IMG/VR virus record: IMGVR_UViG_3300048837_000263
Coordinates: 1-42,101 of that record
Direction: 5' to 3' (one strand)
DNA from: a virus
Length of the DNA: 42,101 nt
The translations under genes and the position numbers were made by a program. Below, one piece after another: positions 12,288 through 42,101 of the stretch. Under the pieces are notes generated by a model, which worked only from the letters and a program-made list of their open reading frames with translations, searched no databases and was not told the DNA's origin. The first letter of the stretch is position 1. The number at the start of each line of letters is the position of its first letter.

Positions 12288-13102
12288 GCGGCCAACTCGA
12301 CTACAGCTACAATCACCGAGCGGCTCTCGACGGCGCACCGGAGCACGCGGTCAACTACGATCGCCTGAGCTTCATCAACCCGCTGTCGATGCAAGTGTCG
12401 ACTCTCACCGTCGGTGGCACGGCCACCGATGGTAACTACGTCTTCACGGCGACGAATCCTGATGGCATCGCAGCAAGCGTCACCGTTGTGCGAGCGACAA
12501 CGCCGGCAACGAATACTGACATTGCAACGGCGATCAAAAATGCGATCAACGCATCGTCGTCGTTCATTGGCATTGCATCAGCGACGTCGGCCGCAGCCGT
12601 CGTGACCGTGACGTTCAAGCGCCCGCTTGTCTACACATTGACCACGAGTGCTCCTGCTCCAGGCACACTCGTCGCTGCGAACACAACGACAGCGGGCGGG
12701 TCGTATCTCGCCGTTGGGCGCTTCGTGAAGAAGGGCACCGGCGATCGAGATCTGACTCCAGTCGTCACTGGGACTACCATCGGCACCATCGTCGGCGTCG
12801 CGCTTCGCACCGGGCAGATTATCAATGGTGGCGACTTCGGCTTGACCTACGACTCGTATCGTCCGGGCGACGACGTTGCCGTAGGTCGTAGCGAACGCGT
12901 GTGGATGAAGGCCTTCGAGGCTGTTACGCCTGCCTCGACTCCGTATTGTTGGATCGACCACACGGACACGAGCGTCCCTGTCGGCGGCCTGGTTGCTGCC
13001 GCTAGCGGTGGCAAAGCGATCGACGCGTCGACGATCTGTCGCATCCTCACAACGACCGCAGCCGGGAGCAACGCTCTCGTAGAGATCTTTAAGGGGGTCT
13101 AA
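12284..13102 (+). CDS. Capsid cement/decoration protein with inserted beta module
   Basis: The 272 residues start MSGQLDYSYNHRAALDG and end with KGTGDRDLTPVVTGTTIGTI...YDSYRPGDDVAVGRSERVWM, the shape of 'structural cement' (Gp24-like) proteins that stabilise capsids next to DUF2184 capsid proteins. Residues about 38-140 are an inserted module (TVGGTATDGNYVFTATNPDG...TNTDIATAIKNAINA) that also occurs in the tail terminator and twice in the sheath. The start overlaps the protease stop (ATGA) and its stop abuts the capsid gene. Confidence 0.78.
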   Translation: MSGQLDYSYNHRAALDGAPEHAVNYDRLSFINPLSMQVSTLTVGGTATDGNYVFTATNPDGIAASVTVVRATTPATNTDIATAIKNAINASSSFIGIASATSAAAVVTVTFKRPLVYTLTTSAPAPGTLVAANTTTAGGSYLAVGRFVKKGTGDRDLTPVVTGTTIGTIVGVALRTGQIINGGDFGLTYDSYRPGDDVAVGRSERVWMKAFEAVTPASTPYCWIDHTDTSVPVGGLVAAASGGKAIDASTICRILTTTAAGSNALVEIFKGV

Positions 13103-14100
13103 TGTTTAGGCAATCACTACAGCAATTCGCGCAACGCCACGCGATCGAGCTCGGAATTCGCACCGATGCTGATTCGATGTTCTTCACTCGCCAGCTTGAG
13201 CAGGTGCTGGCGAAGGAATACGACAAGGAGTTCCCTGAGCTGACGATTGCCAGCGGCTCACTGCTGCCGATGGACTCAGAGGTCCAGTCCGGCGCCGAGA
13301 GCTACGTCTATTACTACGTCGAGCCCACGGGCATGGCGAAAATCTTGAACACGTACGCGGACACCGACTTGCCTGAGATTGGACTTGCGGGCAAAGAGAC
13401 CGTCGGCAAAATCGTTGCCATCGGTGCCGTTTACGGTTGGTCGTTCCAAGATCTTCGCACCGCAGCGATGGCCAACCGCGACATCACGACTCGCAAGGGC
13501 AACGCGTCCAAGCAGTCGCACATGATGGTCGCCAACAAGCTCGGTTGGTTCGGAGACATGGCGCGTGGGTTGTATGGGCTGCTGACGCACCCGAACATCA
13601 CTTACACGCTCGCGCCGTTCAAGGCTGGCGGGTCCGTGGCGGCAGACCGCCTCTGGTCAGCGAAAACGTTCGAGGAGATCCTCGCGGATGTTGGCACGCT
13701 GATCAACACACCGTCCGACATCACGCGAAATGTTGAGAAGGTCGACACGGTTGTTTTCCCATCCAAGGTCGCGAATGCCTTGGCGGCACGAGTTGTGAGC
13801 CCGACCAACGGAAGCAACGTCAACATCTGGAACTTCTTGAAGGGGAACTTCCCTGGAGTGACGTTCGAGACGGCAACTGAGCTCGACATCACCGGCCATG
13901 AGGATACGGAGTTTGTCGGCGTGAACGTGGCCGTGGCATTCAAGAAGGATTCTGACAAGATCTCCTTCGTGATGCCGCAGCCTTACGAGCAATTCCCACC
14001 GCAAGAGAAACTCTTGCGCGTCATCATCCCGACGCACTCACGATGCGGCGCGGTCAAGTGCCCTGCACCACTCTCGGTGCACGTCATGACAGGATTCTAA
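13102..14100 (+). CDS. Major capsid protein (DUF2184 family)
   Basis: The 332-residue protein has features of DUF2184 capsid proteins: FFTRQLEQVLAKEYDKEFPE at the N-terminus, GAESYVYYYVEPTGMAKIL, IGAVYGWSFQDLRTAAM, and HMMVANKLGWFGDMARGLYG. The C-terminus (SVHVMTGF) and the block PQPYEQFPPQEKLLRVIIP fit the HK97-like fold's P and A domains. The size is usual. It sits directly after the cement gene. Confidence 0.92.
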   Translation: MFRQSLQQFAQRHAIELGIRTDADSMFFTRQLEQVLAKEYDKEFPELTIASGSLLPMDSEVQSGAESYVYYYVEPTGMAKILNTYADTDLPEIGLAGKETVGKIVAIGAVYGWSFQDLRTAAMANRDITTRKGNASKQSHMMVANKLGWFGDMARGLYGLLTHPNITYTLAPFKAGGSVAADRLWSAKTFEEILADVGTLINTPSDITRNVEKVDTVVFPSKVANALAARVVSPTNGSNVNIWNFLKGNFPGVTFETATELDITGHEDTEFVGVNVAVAFKKDSDKISFVMPQPYEQFPPQEKLLRVIIPTHSRCGAVKCPAPLSVHVMTGF

Positions 14101-37297: not shown

Positions 37298-37831
37298 TTA
37301 ATTATCCCTCCAAAACTCCAGTTGCGCGCGAAGAAAAACAATCGTGCACTCATCGACCTTGTGATTCATTGCGAGATCCTGACCAATGCTACCAAGCCAC
37401 TCAGCGATGGTGAGAGTCGTGCATCCGATCCTAACGCAATTGCCCTTGCGCTGCGGTATCCATTCGCCGGAGCCGTCGCCGGAGCCGTAGCCTGAGCCGT
37501 AGCCGTAGCCTGAGCCTGATCCGTCGCCTGAGCCGTCGCCGGAGCCGTAGCCTGAGCCTGATCCGTCGCCTGAGCCGTCGCCGGAGCCGTAGCCAAAGCC
37601 GGAGCCGGAGCCGGAGCCGGAGCTCTCGCCGGAGCCGGAGCCGTAGCCTGAGCCGTAGCCGTAGCCTGAGCCTGATCCGTCGCCTGAGCCGTCGCCGGAG
37701 CCGTCGCCGGAGCCGGAGCCGGAGCCGGAGCTCTCGCCGGAGCCGGAGCCGTAGCCTGAGCCGTAGCCGTAGCCGGAGCCTGATCCGTAGTCGTCGCCGT
37801 AGCCGTAGCCGGAGCCCCTGAGATCAGCCAC
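37298..37831 (-). CDS. Alternating-glycine (GX)n low-complexity protein
   Basis: The 177-residue product starts at GTG 37831 behind AGGAG and overlaps the DUF6948 gene by 8 bases. Residues about 6-125 are almost strictly Gly at every second position, with Ser, Tyr, Asp, Glu or Phe between. A 25-residue block (YGYG...GESSGSG) occurs twice and GDGSGDGSG several times. A 50-residue C-terminal domain (RIGCTTLTIAEWLGSIGQDL ...ECTIVFLRAQLEFW) is ordinary globular sequence. Such a Gly/Ser/Tyr chain should be disordered, could phase-separate, or bind calcium via the Asp-rich turns. The role is unknown. Confidence 0.75.
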   Translation of the reverse strand: MADLRGSGYGYGDDYGSGSGYGYGSGYGSGSGESSGSGSGSGDGSGDGSGDGSGSGYGYGSGYGSGSGESSGSGSGSGFGYGSGDGSGDGSGSGYGSGDGSGDGSGSGYGYGSGYGSGDGSGEWIPQRKGNCVRIGCTTLTIAEWLGSIGQDLAMNHKVDECTIVFLRAQLEFWRDN

Positions 37832-38132
37832 GCCAGGCTCCTACGTCGGCGAGGGCCCTGTCCGCCGCGGGAGACAGCTCAATAATCTCACGTGCATCGC
37901 TTATGACGACAAGCGAGACTACTGGTGACAGCCGTCCGGCAGTGATCCCGCTGGCAGCGATGGACAGCGTATCGAGGGCGCCGCTGTCCCACCTCCATAT
38001 TCGCTGAGCGTCGCTCAGCGTGACCGATCGGAGCCCCGCCACGTTTCGCTTGCCCATCTTGGCAAGAGTGCCAAAAAATACGCCAGATCCTGGCGCGCGA
38101 ACTACTACTCGTTTTCCTTTTAATGACATCAT
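37824..38132 (-). CDS. DUF6948-like protein
   Basis: Start ATG 38132 follows AGGAG at six bases; the longer frame upstream is not used. The 102-residue product has LKGKRVVVRAPGSGVFFGTL, RSVTLSDAQRIWRWDSG, LDTLSIAASGITAGRLSPVV, and LVVISDAREIIELSPAADRA, the conserved layout ('VxVRsxxaGVxxGxl...lxxxRrlWxWdGaxsLsxlAxxG...xxivltdvxEIixxt') of DUF6948 phage proteins. Biochemical role unknown. Confidence 0.8.
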   Translation of the reverse strand: MMSLKGKRVVVRAPGSGVFFGTLAKMGKRNVAGLRSVTLSDAQRIWRWDSGALDTLSIAASGITAGRLSPVVSLVVISDAREIIELSPAADRALADVGAWRG

Positions 38133-38152
38133 AAATCTCCTAAGGTGCGACG

Positions 38153-38368
38153 CTATTCTGCCGGGTACTGGCGGGCGATTGCTGCGTTGGCCCACATCAC
38201 CGCAGTTTCGATGTGGGTGTGAGCGATGGATCGCTCTCGCGTGTCAGGACACGACGCGTCGATGAGCAGCGCGAGCTCCTTCGCCTTCTCGCGGATCGCC
38301 TGAAATACAGGCACGATCTCGGCGGGCGGTCGATGGTAGGTGTAGTTGTTGTCGTGATTGAGTGCCAT
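38153..38368 (-). CDS. acb2: Acb2-like anti-CBASS/anti-Thoeris cyclic-nucleotide sponge
   Basis: The 71-residue product starts at ATG 38368 behind GGAG (an in-frame TTG at 38380 is not preferred). YTYHRPPAEIVPVFQAIREKAK, LALLIDASCPDTRERSIAHT, and IETAVMWANAAIARQ match the small helical hairpin family of Acb2 (T4 Vs.4-like), including YHxP and the ending 'SxAxTxxExAVMWANAxIA'. Known members form hexamers that sequester cyclic di- and trinucleotides made by CBASS, and so block effector activation. It should act early, and it stands in the early leftward operon. The fold may also bind other cyclic messengers. Confidence 0.85.
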   Translation of the reverse strand: MALNHDNNYTYHRPPAEIVPVFQAIREKAKELALLIDASCPDTRERSIAHTHIETAVMWANAAIARQYPAE

Positions 38369-38380
38369 TTTCGTCTCCAA

Positions 38381-41481: not shown

Positions 41482-42101
41482 CTAGGCCCGTAGAGCCGCG
41501 ATGATATCCTCGCGAGTCGCATCGGGCGAAAAACTGGGCATCGGGTGCCCGTCTAGCCACAACAGACGAGTGGCGGCCGATGCCACACTCTGCCCACGAG
41601 TACCCCCACCTAGACGGCACGCCCATCCAGCTACACAGCACGGGGTCCCGCAGGATGCATCATCCGTGACGGAGCCCCACTTACTCTGATCATGCAGATC
41701 AGGGTGAGACTCGATATGATCTGCGACGAGTTTGCGCAGCACTAATGGATCTGGAGCGTCACTAAATCGGAATCCGAACGCGCCACTGAGGTCGGCGCCA
41801 CTGAGGTCGGCGCTGCGCAGGTCGGCGCCGATCATGGACGCGCCGCGCAGGTCGGCGCCGATCATGGACGCGCCACTGAGGTCGGCGCCGATCAGGTCGG
41901 CGCCGCTGAGGTCGGCGCCGCTGAGGTAGGCGCTGCGCAGGTCGGCGCCGATCATGGACGCGCCACTGAGGTCGGCGCCGCGCAGGTCGGCGCCGATCAT
42001 GGACGCGCCACTGAGGTCGGCGCCGATCAGGTCGGCGCCGCTGAGGTCGGCGCCGCTGAGGTAGGCGCTGCGCAGGTCGGCGCCGATCATGGACGCGCCA
42101 C
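41482..42101 (-). CDS. Pentapeptide-repeat protein, C-terminal part (continues at 116)
   Basis: This is the rest of the gene that starts at about 455. The first 103 or so residues here are pentapeptides (GADLS, GASMI, SAYLS). Then comes a separate domain of about 98 residues: VLRKLVADHIESHPDLHDQS with KWG, then CGTPCCVAGWACRLGGG, then AATRLLWLDGHPMPSF and the ending TREDIIAALRA. The 'HPxxHDQxxWG...CGTxxCxAGWA' pattern also occurs in other phage proteins without a known role. The Cys cluster could bind metal. The stop is TAG, 17 bases ahead of the ATPase start. Fusion of a beta-helix array to this domain is uncommon. Confidence 0.85.
   Translation of the reverse strand, partial: GASMIGADLRSAYLSGADLSGADLIGADLSGASMIGADLRGADLSGASMIGADLRSAYLSGADLSGADLIGADLSGASMIGADLRGASMIGADLRSADLSGADLSGAFGFRFSDAPDPLVLRKLVADHIESHPDLHDQSKWGSVTDDASCGTPCCVAGWACRLGGGTRGQSVASAATRLLWLDGHPMPSFSPDATREDIIAALRA
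41852..42101. repeat. 135-bp tandem repeats (right part)
   Basis: The unit 41852-41986 is identical to 1-135, and 41987-42101 starts the next copy. Joined through the terminal overlap, three nearly identical units in a row result (41852-41986, 41987-42101 with 116-135, 136-270). Confidence 0.9.
41987..42101. repeat. Terminal direct repeat, right copy (equals 1-115)
   Basis: Identical to bases 1-115 over the full 115 bases. See the left copy for the frame argument for circular joining. Confidence 0.9.

Follow-up and report, generated by a model that had tools for sequence, protein, structure and literature searches.

We have analyzed a viral gene in which nearly every second codon specifies glycine, a (GX)n gene, together with the gene that precedes it, a member of the Pfam family DUF6948 (PF22253). 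The two form an overlooked two-gene unit that is found in very different phages, a conclusion well supported by scans begun from either half. The pair was recognized in a virus record of 42,101 bp, referred to here as the window, which also carries genes for a major head protein, tail sheath, baseplate, terminase, portal and helicase/primase. Features are collected in Table 1.

Table 1. Features of the window and of one published phage genome discussed in the text.
Feature	Position	Strand	Remarks
(GX)n gene	37298..37831	-	177 aa; GTG start at 37831, inside end of DUF6948 gene; stop 37298-37300
Ribosome-binding-like site TAGGAG of (GX)n gene	37838-37843	-	6 nt before GTG
Gly-X array, residues 6-123	37463..37816	-	hexamers mainly GGCTCC, GGCTAC, GGCTCA, GGCGAC
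Duplicated 27-aa block, copy 1, residues 16-42	37706..37786	-	
Duplicated 27-aa block, copy 2, residues 52-78	37598..37678	-	80/81 nt identical to copy 1
C-terminal domain of (GX)n protein, residues 124-177	37301..37462	-	GC..T..W signature
Overlap GTGGCTGA, DUF6948 stop and (GX)n start	37824..37831	-	8 nt
DUF6948 partner gene	37824..38132	-	102 aa from ATG 38132; Pfam PF22253
TAGGAG site of DUF6948 gene	38137-38142	-	4 nt upstream of ATG; favours that start
Small protein with Acb2/Tad1 hairpin domain	38153-38380	-	PF24729, 3.4e-20; upstream neighbour of DUF6948
Pentapeptide-repeat protein (PF00805) with separate C-terminal domain	41482-42090	-	same gene cluster
Unannotated (GX)n gene of phiPLPE (EU876853)	L136:1190-1461		between phiPLPE_84 and phiPLPE_83

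The order of transcription on the minus strand of the window starts with a pentapeptide-repeat protein, an AAA/SbcC-like ATPase, a PD-(D/E)XK exonuclease-like protein and RecT, and continues with an Acb2/Tad1-type protein, DUF6948, (GX)n, two unknown small proteins and a C5 methyltransferase. The (GX)n gene sits in this early-type recombination region, in agreement with the suggestion of an earlier note on this DNA that it encodes an early phage protein. Near 37 pairs, the commonest PHROGs, given as raw counts over 150 same-strand ORFs of the 163 found, were a RecE-like exonuclease (7), an exonuclease (6) and Erf annealing proteins (6 and 5), and the genes around the pairs thus lean toward recombination. 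A viral contig nearly identical to the window, L001, aligns over 9720 nt with 0 mismatches; it represents the same virus rather than independent evidence, and independent relatives were therefore needed.

The coding array of the window, with glycine at every second residue, is real, conserved and hypervariable. Within residues 6-123 the Gly-X alternation is perfect over stretches of 4, 9, 17 and 26 units; DDY interrupts it once and ESSG twice, and the alternation over about 120 residues, first described as strict, is therefore nearly so. Sixty dinucleotide-shuffled versions of the window have longest runs that average 3.7 units and reach 5 at most. Residues 1-128 include 56 glycines, and the X positions are occupied mainly by Ser (34), Tyr (14), Asp (11), Glu (3) or Phe (1), the same set as had been read from the sequence at the outset. 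The duplicated block noticed earlier is present, with a length of 27 residues rather than 25. AlphaFold assigned a pLDDT below 50 to residues 1-122 and of about 63-83 to the remainder, a separate C-terminal domain of some 54 residues whose sequence is ordinary. No family in PHROGs or NCBIfam matched the protein; in Pfam the sole match was TrAA12, below threshold, and the pentapeptide repeat PF00805 was unmatched. There was likewise no match by tblastn against phages with the low-complexity filter on, and the five Foldseek matches to the model (best E 3.8) were not usable.

The first scan for relatives used a pattern of 18 GGNNMN units, which found at least 120 stretches in the viral collection (L006-L125); 94 array records were left, among the matches listed, when X was confined to Ser, Tyr, Asp, Asn and similar residues. 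With an iterated HMM, a DUF6948-type ORF was identified upstream in 57 of the 76 listed records that have at least 350 nt of upstream sequence, and such a gene lies directly upstream at 56 of 68 viral loci among the matches listed. The HMM had been seeded with array neighbours and the upstream ORFs were therefore scanned with Pfam as well: again among the matches listed, PF22253 was found in 46 of 73 ORFs (the 76 minus three repeats) and the next family in 3 of 73. There were 12 loci without a DUF6948 call, and L026, L044, L061 and L098 have sub-threshold matches to the family. Another miss, L055, has one gene between a DUF6948-like gene and the array. Five (GX)n genes are arranged in tandem at this locus (L055:687-2971), behind the DUF6948-like gene and a 225-aa gene; they share the same ends (MGLKAFLKF...EPNLTSAGATVVEE) and their arrays differ. 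The single PcfJ match among the upstream ORFs probably belongs to the 225-aa gene.

The second scan started from DUF6948. Seven DUF6948 proteins were searched against viral contigs, the best 80 of 480 relatives being used, and a genome scan gave 30 loci under many phylum names, nearly all of them metagenome-assembled. Where at least 150 nt of downstream sequence was present, an array of at least 5 uninterrupted Gly-X units was present within 150 nt downstream of the DUF6948 gene in 85 of 91 cases (71 of 77 non-identical gene ends; viral best 80 of 480), a proportion that may overstate the family-wide rate because the query was built from array-linked members. The same test applied to the other ORFs of these loci was positive for 3 of 651. 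Several of the six misses (L175, L194, L195, L200, L247 and L249) have irregular Gly-rich frames. Among named phages, a tblastn search with one DUF6948 protein gave 15 records, and all 14 examined carry arrays with 5 units or more, the fifteenth being the RefSeq twin of phiPLPE, which was left out. These phages include Pectobacterium phages of the Ymer genus, Dickeya phage Setonix, Vibrio phage IKEMa6-1, Iodobacter phage phiPLPE and Chlorobiaceae phage CV-1-33. DUF6948 and the array are fused in one frame in a single contig (L034; 1 of 189 DUF6948 segments), possibly by accident, as a second, normal array follows.

The window DUF6948 protein matches PF22253 with an E-value of 1.6e-13 and 51 bits, above the curated cut-off of 27 bits, and the same family is matched by 68 of its 72 aligned relatives. 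It is basic (pI 11.2, net charge +5.2); over the family the mean pI is 8.1, with 52 of 72 members above 7, versus a mean of 4.2 for the arrays. AlphaFold2 modelled this one member with a pLDDT of 91.9 and a pTM of 0.84 from a 72-sequence alignment, and the predicted fold resembles that of Sm/LSm proteins. All 50 Foldseek matches listed for the model are Sm/LSm-type PDB chains (best E 0.0066), as are all 50 listed by VIA, with 58-78 residues aligned and Z scores of 7.2-8.3, although a VIA Z near 8 can reflect a common structural arrangement. Among viral models the top four matches are DUF6948 proteins, and the lower-ranked matches include a cyanophage protein that is Sm-like and one phage protein named RNA binding. 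Sequence comparison gives less: weak Pfam matches to SM-ATX (2), Hfq (1) and LSM (1) occur among the 72 members; hhalign of DUF6948 against LSM and Hfq profiles from genomes gave E-values of 0.044-0.35, which are not significant (LSM against Hfq gives 4.6e-05), with the Sm1 stretch alone in register; and a profile search of PDB sequences found no Sm chain, only ribosomal eL33 (E 0.22). Since the sequence profiles have no significant match, we call DUF6948 Sm-like in predicted fold and not a member of the Sm family; it differs from Sm, LSm and Hfq proteins in the weakness of its match to the Sm1/Sm2 motif profile. Pfam gives no function for DUF6948. A search by that name found neither a paper on the family nor any report of the pairing or of the Sm-like predicted fold, within a literature that excluded most subscription papers and preprints. 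Within the part of the literature covered, again with most subscription papers and preprints outside it, nothing relevant was found on alternating-glycine repeats of phages, and a search for GYGSG glycine-rich phage proteins gave a match on ticks alone, subscription papers being mostly outside its scope. The word glycine is absent from the main text of the paper on the Ymer genus (PMC11445585).

The earlier note suggested that the repeat protein could act through its C-terminal domain. This is not general, as no more than 12 residues follow the array in 63 of 84 arrays among the repeat-first matches listed. The GC..T..W domain of the window does recur in frame behind the arrays of L027 (the same as L128) and L119, with 21 and 25% identity, and also behind that of L129. 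A contig scan for homologues by means of this domain, as had been proposed, returned only L127-L129, of which L127 and L128 were already in the sample. Weak Vibrio matches to the domain were rejected; they are annotated as other proteins and have no GX runs. Two further types of C-terminal domain, LTGSC and ACNGG..LHAT, are found on (GX)n proteins (L018, L060, L089, L108, L115, L130, L131 and L246; L059, L093 and L155). One example of each was searched against Pfam and PHROGs with no match, and the sole match in a scan with the LTGSC domain was its own contig. Phage pentapeptide-repeat proteins resemble the (GX)n protein in joining a repeat to a small C-terminal domain, although the repeat itself differs; the C-terminal domain of L119 weakly matches PHROGs shared with the pentapeptide protein of the window (0.022 and 0.029).

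The X residues of the arrays are Tyr (38%), Ser (26%), Asp (24%) and Asn (9%) among the repeat-first matches listed; in the same matches 57 arrays use Ser, 27 Asn and 4 both, counting at least 3 residues of each. Over 97 arrays Tyr represents 15.6% and Asp/Glu 12.4% of the residues, and Lys and Arg are nearly absent (22 in 6677 residues). The resemblance to Tyr/Gly/Ser-rich low-complexity proteins that had been pointed out at the start is thus borne out. Low-complexity domains of the FUS/hnRNP type have spaced Gly, Tyr and Ser, almost no Lys or Arg and many aromatics, and condensation of FUS-type proteins is driven by Tyr. The arrays share this spacing, the near absence of Lys and Arg and the aromatic content, and they match phase-separating Tyr-rich proteins in being Tyr-rich with no predicted fold. 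They differ from the FUS/hnRNP type in strict dipeptide alternation, high Asp content and phage origin, and in that the polymer is separate from the putative nucleic-acid-binding protein. The idea that the (GX)n protein forms condensates or serves as a sticky scaffold becomes more plausible with a partner gene whose product has a Sm-like predicted fold.

A second comparison is with Hfq. In the sections of PMC5606850 drawn on here, the disordered tail of Hfq has an acidic tip that acts as a mimic of nucleic acid and binds to the basic Sm core; in those of PMC11617691, the GGFGGQ tail of Acinetobacter baumannii Hfq is long and its tip is acidic. The pair resembles the A. baumannii and Escherichia coli proteins in combining a Sm-type fold, predicted here, with a flexible low-complexity part that is Gly-rich or acidic. 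The phage halves differ from Hfq in being separate, overlapping genes, as in the window, whereas the Hfq-type Sm domain and tail are a single polypeptide; in their strict GX alternation, Tyr-rich and hypervariable; and in having no significant LSM/Hfq sequence match. The mechanism that we tentatively favour, by analogy, is a Sm-like scaffold that works with a disordered acidic, Tyr-rich (GX)n polymer supplied in trans and that would handle nucleic acid. The DUF6948 gene would provide a small basic protein of Sm-like predicted fold and the (GX)n gene the disordered polymer of alternating glycine, and the two products would be made together and bind each other. The polymer would then take in trans the role that the disordered acidic or Gly-rich tail has in cis in some Hfq proteins, and may compete with, or cluster, nucleic acid bound by the Sm-type ring. 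Through many weak Tyr and Asp contacts, phage RNA or ssDNA could become surrounded by a multivalent assembly that would act in the early recombination and replication phase, and the optional C-terminal domains (GC..T..W, LTGSC and ACNGG) may add an extra anchor or cargo.

Two other protein-level explanations were considered. The array may be a structural polymer, with glycine on one face of a silk-like or amyloid-like beta-strand, that forms a filament, coat or gel capped or nucleated by the Sm-like protein. The alternation is kept across arrays with different codons, and amyloid-like beta structure has been reported for Hfq tails (PMC10590398, in the part drawn on here). However, the AlphaFold2 model of the array has almost no beta structure (a low-confidence model from a shallow alignment of 4 sequences), and the alternation could follow simply from copying of a 6-nt unit. 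Silk repeat residues are Ala and Ser, unlike the charged Asp or bulky Tyr found at X, and we consider a structural polymer unlikely. The same must be said of a role in counter-defence or host takeover, in which the acidic, aromatic chain would mimic nucleic acid and inhibit a host enzyme, with DUF6948 as carrier. The net charge of the window (GX)n protein (-13.6), its location among recombination genes and its neighbours, the C5 methyltransferase and the Acb2/Tad1-type protein (a counter-defence family by name), are consistent with this role, but the one anti-CBASS-type neighbour seen is that of this window and the free order of the arrays fits a specific mimic poorly.

The hexamer array itself might instead be what matters, as a recombination hotspot, an attachment site or the RNA ligand of the Sm-like protein, with the peptide incidental. 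One array has indeed been proposed as an attachment site: the phiPLPE repeat (KMGCCG)35 at 46,046-46,255, as described in 2012 in the part of PMC3391216 drawn on here. This repeat is a (GX)n array that lies right behind the DUF6948 gene phiPLPE_84 (EU876853) and reads GDGSGYGDG... The same source gives, as a consensus only, a repeat of Vibriophage CP-T1 (12,969-13,158; GCARACCTAYRCGRC) that in one frame reads as an A(N/D)Lxx pentapeptide repeat. Codon usage was examined in the DUF6948-first sample, because the repeat-first pattern misses AGY Ser and TTY Phe codons. The arrays of this sample, together with that of the window, comprise 82 non-identical arrays with 2690 units. Over these, in which GG is fixed by definition, the mean heterozygosity at hexamer positions 3-6 is 0.04, 0.40, 0.47 and 0.07, so that the Gly wobble base is almost frozen within an array. 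The window is less uniform than most arrays, with a third-base diversity of 0.14 for Gly and 0.47 for X. The wobble is also independent of genome composition: the correlation of GGC use with genome GC is -0.02 in the arrays and 0.63 in other genes, and at loci below 45% GC the use of GGC is 0.69 in arrays and 0.23 elsewhere. These observations would suit an element that acts as nucleic acid. Against it, the arrays are written in GGC, GGG and GGT dialects (65, 10 and 7 of 82; in full, GGC-NNC 47, GGC-NNT 17, GGC-NNG 1, GGG-NNC 10 and GGT-NNC 7) and yet specify the same amino acids.

The geometry of the genes argues likewise for translation. Of the 70 complete pairs in the DUF6948-first sample, 65 have ATG as the start codon assigned to the GX frame. 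This codon lies inside the end of DUF6948 in 67 pairs, and in 58 it precedes the end of the stop codon by exactly 13 nt. A stop no more than 3 codons past the array is found in the GX frame in 54 of 70 pairs, versus 9 and 6 of 70 in the other two frames, and homologous C-terminal domains follow arrays in frame. The GX frame is thus kept among relatives, where the earlier note had named its loss as grounds for rejection. An incidental peptide is, on this balance, quite unlikely. A gene of phage CV-1-33 (gene_25, L135:2798-3043) is annotated as MAMAMALA...; its deposited frame is probably wrong, since the same DNA gives (GX)n when read in a different frame. The L159 array has an out-of-frame VRVR stretch between in-frame GX parts, as if by two compensating frame slips or an assembly error.

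A functionless microsatellite, in which replication slippage lengthens a harmless tail of hexamers behind DUF6948, might be suspected from the block duplication in the window and from the fast turnover of arrays between identical flanks. The Pectobacterium phages Ymer and Amona have identical flanks (upstream 1730 nt, downstream 1151 nt) around arrays that have 32 and 29 units, respectively, and differ by an edit distance of 12 (mean 18.5 and minimum 12 with shuffled order). The array differences among Pectobacterium phages may be assembly error; an assembly can reproduce an array, since Ymer and Abuela carry identical arrays, as do six viral contigs of one virus with 52 units each. The ungapped downstream identity of Taid (0.288) reflects a register shift and was set aside, the downstream values of Setonix and Sabo were left out, and so was the edit distance of L158 and L159, which have identical flanks, because of the frame slips in L159. 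Pure slippage should homogenise X in the same way as the wobble, but X is mixed in 82 of 82 arrays, its bases being more variable than the synonymous Gly wobble base in every one. The same X alphabet recurs at loci from 32% to 74% GC, and the pair is kept in the DUF6948-first proportion given above; a microsatellite devoid of function is accordingly improbable. The alphabet and the alternation are kept in the arrays while order and length change fast, and a median of 96% of an array is covered by three hexamers. This is most simply read as the copying and loss of blocks of hexamers, combined with selection for a mixed polymer of Tyr, Ser (or Asn) and Asp whose order is free. RTX repeats follow the nonapeptide consensus GGxGxDxUx, which cannot occur in the window protein because its 177 residues contain no GG dipeptide, and the calcium-binding turns suggested at the outset, for which Asp at regular positions had spoken, are hardly credible as turns of this kind.

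The favoured reading, a Sm-like scaffold with its polymer in trans, can be carried further. The pair may be a new phage ribonucleoprotein scaffold in which a Sm-like ring and (Gly-X)n chains organise RNA or ssDNA early in infection, with the composition of the chains selected and their order not; we hold this to be possible, if doubtful. The array would be kept by copying of three hexanucleotide 'letters', with codon dialects that differ between phages.

Annotators have skipped, misframed or entered as a DNA repeat what proves to be half of a conserved gene pair, and the DUF6948 family alone has 480 relatives in one viral-contig scan. The frozen wobble base beside variable coding bases offers a clean system for the study of repeat copying and selection in low-complexity proteins. 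If the Sm-like reading is true, these phages would present a natural split of an RNA-binding ring and its low-complexity tail into two genes, and the role of the tail would be testable through one small phage gene.
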